NCBI GenBank assembly: GCA_026014485.1
Contig: JAOZIE010000002.1
Location: 233,081-297,080, forward strand
Direction: 5' to 3'
DNA length: 64,000 nt
DNA from: Candidatus Bathyarchaeota archaeon
GTDB lineage: Archaea > Thermoproteota > Bathyarchaeia > Bathyarchaeales > Bathycorpusculaceae
The notes beneath the pieces are model-generated. The model did no database searches and was not told the origin of the DNA. It was given only the letters and a program-made list of their open reading frames with translations. The translations under genes and the position numbers were made by a program. Shown here one piece after another: positions 8,926-13,145 of the stretch. The stretch's first letter is position 1. Each line of letters starts with the position of its first letter.

Positions 8926-8941
8926 CAGAATTTACAAAATT

Positions 8942-8947
8942 GGAGGT
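8942..8947 (+). promoter_or_regulatory. Shine-Dalgarno site that fixes the dnaG start
   Basis: GGAGGT, ideal SD, with 8 nt to the ACG codon at 8956. No ATG, GTG or TTG occurs in the dnaG frame between the upstream stop (8923-8925) and 9361. Confidence 0.8.
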
Positions 8948-8955
8948 TAACACTT

Positions 8956-10143
8956 ACGGGAACATCCCAAACATTTACCATAAAGTATGTTATACACGCA
9001 AGATTCGAAATTGAAGGTGTAGTTGAAAAACCCGACGTAATCGGCGCAGTTTTTGGCCAAACCGAAGGATTATTCGGACCCGAACTAGACCTTAGAGAAC
9101 TACAAAAAACAGGACGCATCGGCAGAATCGAAATTGAACTGCACAGCAAAAACGACCGCACCGCAGGCGCCATCACCATACCTACAAGTCTTGACCGCGT
9201 AAGCACCGCACTCATAGCTGCAAGCGTCGAAAGCATAAACCGCGTTGGACCCTGCAGCGCAAAAGTCCTTCTAGACAAAATCGAAGACATACGCGAAGCC
9301 AGACGAAAAATAATCATCGACAGAGCCAAAGACATTCTCCACAGATGGAACATCGAATCCATGCCCAGCGTTGATGAAATCTACAAAGAAATCAGCGAAA
9401 CCATGAAAGTAGGCAAAGTCGAAAAATTCGGACCTGAAGACCTCCCAGCAGGACCAACCCTTGAAACAAGCAAAGAAATCTACGTGGTCGAAGGAAGAGC
9501 CGACATCATAAACCTCATGCGCTGTGGCATATCAAACACTGTCGCACTTGAAGGAGCAAAAGTTCCTGACTCCATAAAACGTCTCACAAAAGAAAAAGAA
9601 TCCACCGCACTTCTAGACGGTGACCGCGGCGGAGATTTAATCCTCAAAGAACTTCTCCAAGTAACCAACATCAAATACGTTGGACGAGCACCCCGAGGCA
9701 AAGAAATCGAAGAATGCAGCTGCAAAGAAATCGCAGAAGCCATAGCCTCTAAAGTCGCAGTAGCAGACCTCTACAAACCCAAAAAAGCCGAACGCCCAGA
9801 AAAACAAGAAAGACCCGAAAAGCGACCTGAAAAACCAAAGAAAGAGTTCCCCGAGCCGATGGTTAAAGCAGCCAAAGCGCTGGTTGGCTCATTGGAAGCT
9901 GTTCTTTTGAACGAGAAGCTGGAGCAAACCGAGAAGCTGCCCGTCAGCCAGTTAGCTGAGAGACTACAGCAAGCCTCCGGCGTGGACACAGTGATTTTCG
10001 ACGGCATCATCACCCAACGCATAGTCGACATCGCCAGCGAAAAAAACATCAAACGCATCATCGCATCCAGAGTCTCCGAAGCAGTAAAACCAACCCTCAA
10101 CGTCGAACTAGATACATTCCAAGACCTCATCACACCAAACTAA
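8956..10143 (+). CDS. dnaG: Archaeal DnaG-type primase, apparent ACG start
   Basis: About 395 residues. The archaeal DnaG N-terminal domain is intact (ARFEIEGVVEKPDVIGAVFG, GPELDLRELQKTGRIGRIE), followed by the TOPRIM domain: EIYVVEGRADIINLMRCGIS with the catalytic Glu, ALLDGDRGGDLILKEL with the Asp-x-Asp pair, then YVGRAPRGKEIEECSCKEI. A charged Glu/Lys/Pro linker (about 275-300) precedes the C-terminal exosome-associating region. The family makes short primers and also associates with the archaeal exosome. Coding similarity begins right after 8956, but the first canonical start codon in frame is 9361, inside the protein. GGAGGT sits 8 nt before ACG at 8956, so ACG is the likely start unless the base is a sequencing error. 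The gene stands alone, with a gap on both sides. Confidence 0.9.
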   Translation, partial: TGTSQTFTIKYVIHARFEIEGVVEKPDVIGAVFGQTEGLFGPELDLRELQKTGRIGRIEIELHSKNDRTAGAITIPTSLDRVSTALIAASVESINRVGPCSAKVLLDKIEDIREARRKIIIDRAKDILHRWNIESMPSVDEIYKEISETMKVGKVEKFGPEDLPAGPTLETSKEIYVVEGRADIINLMRCGISNTVALEGAKVPDSIKRLTKEKESTALLDGDRGGDLILKELLQVTNIKYVGRAPRGKEIEECSCKEIAEAIASKVAVADLYKPKKAERPEKQERPEKRPEKPKKEFPEPMVKAAKALVGSLEAVLLNEKLEQTEKLPVSQLAERLQQASGVDTVIFDGIITQRIVDIASEKNIKRIIASRVSEAVKPTLNVELDTFQDLITPN

Positions 10144-10231: not shown

Positions 10232-10383
10232 AAAAACAAAACCGCCTAGAAGGGCGAGCTCACAGCCTATTGGCCATCAGAGCCATCCGTTTATCGAGGA
10301 GAAAGGAGAAGGCTTCGAAAACGGAAAATCTTCTGCTGGCTAACCTGATGCGCCTTCAACCTCGCTCGCCCTTCCATGCTACG
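10232..10383 (-). ncRNA. Candidate structured small RNA with nested helices
   Basis: Seen directly: an 11-bp closing helix (10249-10259 with 10364-10374), CATCAG/CTGATG (10275-10280 with 10345-10350) extended by GGC/GCC (10272-10274 with 10352-10354) past one bulged base, AGCC/GGCT (10281-10284 with 10338-10341), CCGTTT/AAACGG (10287-10292 with 10319-10324) and TCGA/TCGA (10294-10297 with 10315-10318), all properly nested around a 17-nt loop at 10298-10314. On the minus strand a TATA box (10405-10414) lies about 25 nt before the proposed 5' end and a T-rich run (10231-10241) follows the closing helix, so minus is the favoured strand. There the loop is pyrimidine-rich (CTTCTCCTTTCTCC) and resembles an anti-SD sequence. 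It does not look like tRNA, 5S rRNA, SRP RNA or RNase P RNA. Strand and ends are inferred. Confidence 0.65.
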
Positions 10384-10404
10384 ACTCAAGACTTAAGATA
10401 AAGG

Positions 10405-10414
10405 CTTATAAAAG
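10405..10414 (-). promoter_or_regulatory. TATA box for the candidate small RNA
   Basis: Minus-strand CTTTTATAAG, a strong archaeal TATA box. Its expected start site about 25 nt downstream falls at 10380-10385, directly before the 11-bp closing helix. It is downstream of the stop of the gene at 10451-11017 and so does not serve that gene. Confidence 0.55.
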
Positions 10415-10450: not shown

Positions 10451-11017
10451 TTAGGTTAGAGTTATGGTGCCTTCAAGGATTTGTTTTTCGGGTATGCCCA
10501 GTTGTTTGCTAAGATAAGTTTTCAAGAGCAGGGATAATTGTGGCATTTGCCCAGTGTAGGTTATAAGATGATTGTTCTTTAGGGCTTCTATAGTGATGTT
10601 CTGGTCTGTTTCTTTTGTAGTGAAAGCAGCTGTCTGCGCTTTAGCAGATAGTTCCCAGAAATCCTCCCACTGCGTGCATTGCATCCGCAACGGCAAACTA
10701 CACGGCAACGTGGGGGTCATGTTTTCAGATTCGGGCATGGCCAGCGTTGTTCCAGAGGATACCTGTGTTGCCGCGGTTTGCTGGGGGGTTGCTGTTAGTG
10801 TTTTGAACAGATTGCTGACTTCAGTTTGGACGCCGTTAATTTTATCCTCAATTTTCTTTACTCTGCAGTTCAGTTCGCTCGATTCACCCAGTTGACCTGC
10901 AACAGTGCCCAGCTCGTCTATGAGCCTATCTAAGTCTTTTTCATGTTCCTTGAGAACGTTAACGATGAAGTCTAATGCCTCTAACGCTTCATCTTTAGAT
11001 GGGGCTTTCTCTGACAT
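10451..11017 (-). CDS. Coiled-coil protein, function unknown
   Basis: 188 residues from ATG 11017, with AGAGGA directly upstream as SD; a longer reading from 11080 is possible but ignores that SD. The N-terminal half is a long helix or coiled coil (EALEALDFIVNVLKEHEKDL, LNCRVKKIEDKINGVQTEVS). A Thr/Gln/Ser-rich linker (about 85-120) follows, then a compact C-terminal domain (CTQWEDFWELSAKAQTAAF, TIEALKNNHLITYTGQMP). No membrane segment or catalytic motif is visible. It could be a scaffold or regulator; I do not recognise a family. The candidate small RNA lies just downstream on the same strand but appears to have its own promoter. Confidence 0.65.
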   Translation of the reverse strand: MSEKAPSKDEALEALDFIVNVLKEHEKDLDRLIDELGTVAGQLGESSELNCRVKKIEDKINGVQTEVSNLFKTLTATPQQTAATQVSSGTTLAMPESENMTPTLPCSLPLRMQCTQWEDFWELSAKAQTAAFTTKETDQNITIEALKNNHLITYTGQMPQLSLLLKTYLSKQLGIPEKQILEGTITLT

Positions 11018-12446: not shown

Positions 12447-13145
12447 ATGGAGAAAGGAGAAGCAGGCAGACGTTTAACACAGGTTATAATACCCACGTTA
12501 AACGAGGAACAAGGTATTGGGCTAACTATAGCTGAGCTTAGGTCACATTTGAATGAGGCTCGAATTCTTGTCGTTGACGGCAGAAGCTCCGACCGAACAG
12601 TTGAGGTTGCAAAGAATACTGGCGCAGATATTCTTTTTCAAGACGGCTTAGGTAAAGGCGATGCCATAGCCAAGGCAATTGAATGCGCTGATTTGGCCGT
12701 TGATTACGTCGTTTTCACAGACGCCGACTACACGTATCCAGCGGAGACTCTACCGAGCATGGTTCAGATTCTCGAAGAAAACCCGCGTGTCGGTATGGTG
12801 CTTGGCAACAGATTTAACCGCTATCTGTCACAGAGTGAAGCGTTGCACAGCGTTTACCACTTTGGCAACAGACTAATAGCTTTCACTCATAACTTGCTCA
12901 ACGGCGTTCTGCTGAAAGACCCGTTAACTGGACTTCGTGTTATACGTGCCGAAATACTCAGAGACTGGGTAGTCAAATCCAAAAGTTTTGATGTGGAAGT
13001 TGAACTGAACCACCTTGTTGAGCGCAAAGGCTTTGGCATCGTAGAGGTTCCCATAAAGTATAGGCAACGCGTGGGGCAGAAGAAGCTGAAGATTGCAGAC
13101 GGCGCCACCATTTTTAAACGCATCATGCTTGAAACAACATACTAA
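12447..13145 (+). CDS. GT2 family glycosyltransferase, dolichol-phosphate-sugar synthase type
   Basis: 232 residues from ATG 12447 (TTG at 12438 is also in frame; AGGG lies at 12431-12434). GT-A fold motifs: VIIPTLNEEQGIGLTIAEL at the N-terminus, ILVVDGRSSDRTVEVA, then FTDADYTYPAETLPSMV with the metal-binding D-x-D, and DPLTGLRVIRAEIL plus a VEVELNHLVERKGFGIVEVP acceptor-side segment. It has no C-terminal membrane domain. This is the DPM1/AglJ-like group, which transfers the first sugar to dolichol phosphate for archaeal N-glycosylation. It stands about 3 kb ahead of the main glycan cluster. The first 14 nt after the start-codon A-T are perfectly complementary to the loop of the small RNA candidate at 10232-10383. 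Confidence 0.88.
   Translation: MEKGEAGRRLTQVIIPTLNEEQGIGLTIAELRSHLNEARILVVDGRSSDRTVEVAKNTGADILFQDGLGKGDAIAKAIECADLAVDYVVFTDADYTYPAETLPSMVQILEENPRVGMVLGNRFNRYLSQSEALHSVYHFGNRLIAFTHNLLNGVLLKDPLTGLRVIRAEILRDWVVKSKSFDVEVELNHLVERKGFGIVEVPIKYRQRVGQKKLKIADGATIFKRIMLETTY

Follow-up and report, generated by a model that had tools for sequence, protein, structure and literature searches.

A structured RNA gene, RNA1, lies on the minus strand next to dnaG in the window (the whole stretch of DNA that was analysed, 64,000 nt from a Candidatus Bathyarchaeota genome), and it very likely represents a new RNA family. Judging by its sequence signals and conservation, RNA1 is most likely a structured RNA, about 150 nt long and transcribed on its own, that is characteristic of one order of Bathyarchaeia. 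It is inherited together with the gene of a probable RNA-binding protein, and thus looks like a new archaeal RNA-protein regulator. Below, f, g, G and L denote families, genera, genomes and loci, respectively, and G000 is the genome of the window. The locus contains the following features:

About 10390-10231, minus strand: RNA1, structured RNA gene of about 150-160 nt, defined by conservation and covariation, with no Rfam match
10413-10406, minus strand: TATA box TTTTATAA, with a TATA-like box in the same place in f1 loci and in the divergent families
10376-10400, minus strand: predicted start region with the conserved block TATCTTAAGTCTTGAGTCG, the start being placed by its distance from the TATA box
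10249-10374, minus strand: rod closed by helix P1, with compensatory changes
10374-10364 and 10259-10249, minus strand: P1, GAAGGGCGAGC paired with GCUCGCCCUUC, 11 bp
10354-10352 and 10274-10272, minus strand: helix GGC/GCC, 3 bp
10350-10345 and 10280-10275, minus strand: helix CAUCAG/CUGAUG, 6 bp
10341-10337 and 10285-10281, minus strand: helix AGCCA/UGGCU, 5 bp
10325-10319 and 10292-10286, minus strand: helix UCCGUUU/AAACGGA, 7 bp
10318-10315 and 10297-10294, minus strand: helix UCGA/UCGA, 4 bp
10314-10298, minus strand: apical loop AGCCUUCUCCUUUCUCC, 17 nt, pyrimidine-rich, complementary to RNA2 (see below), identical in 30 of 30 f1 loci
10355-10363, minus strand: 5' strand of the internal loop, GAGGUUGAA, near-invariant, putative protein-docking site
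10260-10271, minus strand: 3' strand of the internal loop, AAUAGGCUGUGA, near-invariant AACAAACRAUGA in relatives
About 10243-10229, minus strand: U-rich end GGTTTTGTTTTTTGG, likely terminator
10451-11017, minus strand: gene of a 188-aa protein upstream of RNA1, linked to it in the same five families

The initial annotation placed a candidate RNA at 10232-10414. The locus is right and the limits are slightly generous. All six helices and the 17-nt loop described there were found on the minus strand, with all lengths within one base pair: those of 11, 3, 6 and 4 bp stand as given, whereas AGCCA is extended from 4 to 5 bp and UCCGUUU from 6 to 7 bp. The minus-strand TATA box and T-rich end are both present, and thus, as far as the sequence tells, RNA1 has a promoter and a terminator of its own: the TATA box is conserved, and the T-rich end is seen in the window. 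The locus is indeed GC-rich compared to its surroundings (G+C of 51% in RNA1, 27% immediately upstream and 44% in the window). The position downstream of dnaG holds in the window; it is a local accident, as the two genes are convergent and RNA1 has another neighbour in most relatives. As for dnaG itself (about 8930-10143, plus strand), its frame is open far upstream of the first ATG (9361), and thus the gene exceeds the listed 260-aa ORF. It apparently begins at a non-ATG codon; relatives, for instance L002, have ATG at that place.

The minimum free energy of the fragment 10375-10249 is -53.5 kcal/mol, compared with -41.1 +/- 3.6 for dinucleotide shuffles (z -3.4, none of 300 as low). However, the minus-strand fold with other limits has z of only -0.4. 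The z value depends on the chosen limits, and thus RNA1 is not settled by energy alone. The plus strand folds well too; the conserved promoter sits on the minus strand. Energy is weak evidence here, and the decisive evidence is comparative.

A blastn search with the 196-nt RNA1 region found a match in 34 of 61 related genomes, at a single locus in each except G010, where two RNA1 pieces were found, both at contig ends. The core TCGA-AGCCTTCTCCTTTCTCC-TCGA is identical in all 30 f1 loci considered (L001-L030). An exact scan for this core over 84,980 species gave 55 stretches; the records are named Bathyarchaeota, Bathyarchaeia, Bathycorpusculum or, in older entries, MCG, the sole exception bearing just the title 'Crenarchaeota archaeon'. 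The RNA1 covariance model has hits in 89 of the 257 genomes available for the class and, in a draw of 300 genomes from the phylum, in 24; the matches are confined to f1, f2, f4, f6 and f7, families of the window's order. The search of the window against Rfam 15 gave no match at the gathering threshold and chance hits only up to E 10, in agreement with the earlier statement that the RNA matches no known family. No second copy of RNA1 was found in its own genome; thus it is neither a repeat nor a mobile element. Two or three RNA1 loci per genome were observed in G133, G134 and G135, the additional copies (L121, L123, L125, L126) having no adjoining protein gene.

Covariation was analysed in an alignment of 45 homologs, where 90.4% of cells are in standard pairs, although fitting the homologs to the model biases the alignment towards pairing. 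Both sides are altered in 21 of 39 pairs, and there are 135 doubly changed cells compared to 42.0 +/- 6.5 in shuffles (0 of 500 as high). Sliding one strand by 1-3 columns decreases the pairing to 25-56%. All nine modelled pairs of P1 are altered on both sides; its sequence varies freely across lineages while the pairing is retained. The RNA1 structure is under selection. Homologs without compensatory changes had been named beforehand as the finding that would count against the candidate, and the changes were found. The conserved promoter and loop, the compensatory changes and the lack of an Rfam 15 match support the claim that the minus strand encodes a new structured small RNA.

The block over the predicted start is TATCTTAAGTCTTGAGTCG in the window and ATCTTAAGTCTTACGA in most relatives, and it is present across all five families; it may belong to the RNA itself or act as a promoter or operator. 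The pyrimidine tract, in one form or another, and the internal loop GAGGUUGAA / CCAACAAACRAUGA likewise occur in every one of these families, and f4, f6 and f7 have variants of these elements. In single-sequence folds of f7 the tract is next to a separate hairpin, outside the apical loop. A changed loop, CCCTCTCATATCTCC, was observed in g12 genomes lacking the protein (L130 in G126 and L159 in G129), and the same loop occurs in G149 and G155.

The constant neighbour of RNA1 is the upstream gene on its own strand, found in 30 of 30 f1 loci and likewise in f2, f4 and f6 loci. RNA1 follows this gene directly in these four families and, in many f1 genomes, precedes same-strand genes such as cysS, as would be expected of a cis element that serves the upstream gene as a structured 3'UTR or the downstream one as a leader. 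However, the conserved TATA box separates the stop codon from RNA1, and the downstream gene varies, being convergent in the window. Besides, several f7 genomes carry the protein gene near RNA1 but on the opposite strand or downstream. The linkage survives this rearrangement, and thus RNA1 need not be the 3'UTR of the protein gene. A cis role is very unlikely: given that RNA1 has a promoter of its own and that the f7 loci are rearranged, neither a terminator nor a 3'UTR or leader was retained as the main reading.

Strong hits to the protein are limited to the five families with RNA1; other families and orders gave weak, partial hits only. The protein is present in 83 of 89 genomes with RNA1, and the remaining six all belong to g12 and have a weak, partial or altered RNA1; where this genus lost the protein, RNA1 has changed or disappeared. 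As the genomes are related, the tiny Fisher value obtained for the co-occurrence is not a probability. There are 20 genomes with the protein and no RNA1 model hit; in nine of them (eight from f6, one from f7) RNA1 is visible by eye. In the f6 genomes G048, G054, G057, G099, G102, G104 and G106, inspection by eye found no RNA1 adjoining the protein gene. On the whole, RNA1 and the neighbour protein probably form a ribonucleoprotein.

The 188-aa protein belongs to no Pfam or NCBIfam family above the cut-off. Predicted models and fold matches suggest a coiled coil (residues 8-75) joined by a disordered linker to an SRP9/14-eL38-like domain at the C-terminus (about 108-180). The AlphaFold model (pLDDT 80; 86 for the domain alone) shows a long helix and, beyond the disordered linker, a domain of beta-alpha-beta-beta-beta-alpha order; the alpha-beta-beta-beta-alpha fold of SRP9/14 is seen in this predicted model. 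The best Foldseek matches of the C-terminal domain are SRP9/SRP14 and ribosomal eL38 (E about 0.01 with two models), and comparison with 1e8o_A gave prob 1.00 and TM 0.55-0.58, by target length. Sequence homology to SRP9/14 or eL38 was not found with sequence profiles, Pfam or PDB, and hhalign with human SRP9 gave a probability of 15%. The C-terminal domain is predicted to have an SRP9/14-eL38-like RNA-binding fold, and the protein may be an analogue or a remote relative of SRP9/14. Should it really bind RNA in the manner of SRP9/14, it would be relevant to how the eukaryotic Alu-domain proteins arose. According to a 2010 review, homologs of SRP9/14 were not found in archaea (PMC2905702).

The predicted C-terminal fold is what the protein shares with SRP9/14 and eL38, binders of SRP RNA or rRNA, and SRP9/14 and the Alu-domain RNA resemble RNA1 and its neighbour also in that the RNA and the protein are encoded or inherited together. 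The pair could thus be a derived, split-off Alu-domain-like particle of SRP that touches the ribosome. However, the two-hairpin Alu 5' domain is missing from RNA1, which is a simple rod, Rfam gave no SRP match at its locus, and the protein lacks sequence homology and has an extra coiled coil. Such an origin is highly improbable. The Alu domain of SRP (7S) RNA itself was rejected, as RNA1 is a single rod having no two-hairpin 5' domain with UGUNR and no Rfam SRP match.

A candidate RNA partner of RNA1, named RNA2, was found in the same genome:

G000:C2:121592-121660, plus strand: own-genome copy of RNA2, identified by a sequence model and by the loop complement

RNA2 is a second short predicted transcription unit at another place in the genome, and it has a TATA box and a T-run of its own. 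It carries a 12-20-nt complement of the RNA1 loop (GGGAGAAAGGAGAAGGCUUC and variants). A search for loop complements in 61 family genomes gave about 75 non-self hits, compared to six for the reversed pattern, and a large part of this enrichment is RNA2 itself. The common layout consists of TTTTATAA, about 33 nt, GGGAGAAAGGAGAAGGCTTC or its variant, usually CATCAC, and a T-run. The first RNA2 set was picked by complementarity alone; nonetheless, nearly all its members have the TATA box. Among 38 inspected copies, all have a TATA-like box in a fixed place (36 by pattern, two by eye). A gene encoding a CBS-domain-like product converges on the own-genome copy at a distance of 40-odd nt, so RNA2 is probably short. 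The sequence model found RNA2 in 44 of 257 genomes, nearly always at a single locus; the hits are in f1 (excluding g27, and with only one genome from g12), in f2 and in one f7 genome. RNA1 is also detected by its model in 41 of these 44 genomes, the others being G164 and G170, which are incomplete assemblies, and G192, which has the protein. Rfam 15 gave no match at three RNA2 or target loci.

The predicted duplex between the loop and RNA2 in the own genome has an energy of -31.3 kcal/mol, compared to -12.0 +/- 3.1 for shuffled RNA2. Within the paired core of RNA2, A-to-G changes, which keep the pairing, occur in 17 of 228 cells, whereas G-to-A changes, which break it, occur in one of 190 (p 4e-4, for cells that are not independent and with no neutral baseline). 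When changes are counted once per position and genus, the numbers are 12 and 1, respectively. RNA2 itself folds into a clear hairpin in most own-genus genomes, and this hairpin is conserved in few lineages; a conserved hairpin was rejected as a description of RNA2, since the minimum free energy fold shows it in just eight of 38 copies. The reverse strand of RNA2 contains GUGAUG and sometimes CUGA, absent from the own genus. For RNA1, inspection of the alignment found no consistent boxes of box C/D or H/ACA guide RNAs.

These observations suggest the following model. Firstly, the internal loop GAGGUUGAA / CCAACAAACRAUGA would dock the neighbouring protein. Secondly, the invariant pyrimidine tract, which the 17-nt loop keeps open, would serve as the working part of RNA1 and pair in trans with purine-rich RNA. 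Finally, the dedicated partner would be RNA2, a short RNA transcribed from a promoter of its own and carrying the complement GGGAGAAAGGAGAAGGCUUC or its variants; RNA2 could act as the principal target or, alternatively, as a sponge holding RNA1 off other purine-rich leaders. Judging from the conserved complementarity, pairing of RNA1 with RNA2 is somewhat favoured as the function. Chances appear evenly balanced that RNA1 is the RNA of a small base-pairing ribonucleoprotein with RNA2 as its dedicated target or sponge. The complete scheme, a lineage-specific archaeal ribonucleoprotein in which an SRP9/14-eL38-type protein and a long loop-target duplex with a dedicated second RNA regulate expression, is tentative. 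To our knowledge, no counterpart of such a two-RNA, one-protein regulatory machine has been described in archaea, and a literature search, mostly outside subscription journals, found no described regulatory RNA of Bathyarchaeia. Since this covariation-supported family has a clear working part and candidate RNA and protein partners, its function is directly testable.

Several observations count against the model as a whole: loops of g12 and g27 without RNA2, altered loops without a compensated RNA2, an RNA2 fold conserved in few lineages, a protein fold match with E of only about 0.01 and no backing from sequence, and several f6 protein genes without a visible adjoining RNA1. The sequence model did not detect RNA2 in most of g12 and in g27, although the loop is kept there, and thus RNA2 is disfavoured as the sole partner of RNA1. 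No compensated RNA2 matching the altered loop was found for G126, G129, G149 and G155; hence coordinated change of the loop and its partner was not seen there. One possibility is that the pyrimidine tract is a protein-binding site, and one protein binds both the RNA1 loop and its equivalent at RNA2, in RNA or DNA, the complementarity being a by-product of one motif on opposite strands. The g12 loops retained without detectable RNA2 would fit this, as would the recurrence of the f6 tract in further intergenic elements resembling other RNAs. However, the conserved TATA box and T-run of RNA2 agree with the purine strand, and the A-to-G bias is a prediction of an RNA duplex. A shared protein site is rather improbable, and RNA1-RNA2 pairing is preferred. 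The loop complements in f6 were mostly elements with the pyrimidine tract on the opposite strand and were not accepted as clear RNA2. The intergenic elements with the CUUCUCCUUUCUCU tract, observed on the reverse strands of L327, L331, L339, L334 and L348, have inverted-repeat stems around the tract and TATA-like boxes upstream. They are possibly further RNAs sharing the RNA1 loop.

The loop looks like an anti-Shine-Dalgarno sequence, and RNA1 could be a general repressor that uses its CUCC-rich loop to bind the ribosome-binding sites of numerous mRNAs by base-pairing, RNA2 being one target or a sponge. The parallel is the alpha-r14 ('cuckoo') RNAs of Alphaproteobacteria, such as NfeR1, with three hairpins each carrying an unpaired CCUCCUCCC (PMC10746234). 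Like RNA1, these RNAs, which act in trans, have an ultraconserved unpaired pyrimidine-rich motif and freely varying stems (PMC10746234). The enrichment of non-self complements, some of which, scattered in other genomes, overlap Shine-Dalgarno sequences or start codons, is consistent with general repression. However, much of this enrichment is RNA2, the invariant 17-nt loop exceeds the needs of anti-Shine-Dalgarno pairing, and pairing with 55 start regions of the window is no better for the loop than for the reversed loop (mean of -8.5 compared with -8.4 kcal/mol). General repression is doubtful, and a dedicated partner is still preferred. Unlike the cuckoo RNAs, RNA1 is archaeal and forms one rod with a single 17-nt tract; a protein gene is linked to it, and RNA2 is its predicted dedicated complement.

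A dedicated second RNA complementary to the working motif, as in a sponge pair, is what RNA2 would be for RNA1. A similar relation exists between SisA-D and CrfA of Caulobacter, where the second small RNA complements the conserved working motif of the first (PMC12559287). That bacterial system is Hfq-dependent and shown experimentally, whereas the RNA1-RNA2 pair is deduced from sequence. In archaea, sRNA162 of Methanosarcina is described as a trans-acting small RNA pairing with mRNAs (PMC3510493); it differs from RNA1 in lineage.

Other possible targets of the loop were also noted. One was found in the window:

12448-12463 (within one base), plus strand: ATGGAGAAAGGAGAAGC, a 14-nt perfect complement of the loop and possibly a minor target, located where a glycosyltransferase family 2 gene has its start codon

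This is one site and may be a chance match. At L282 (G039, f4) a complement of about 40 nt to the locally changed RNA1 loop and helix arm sits in the apparent leader of a glycosyltransferase-like gene. Either a recent inverted duplication or a genuine target could account for it, and it was left out of the counts. At L291 (G131) and L245 (G169) the loop complement ends right at the ATG (GGCTTYATG). The open frames there start with MNLFRK and MRLFRR, respectively, and possibly represent a shared mRNA target.
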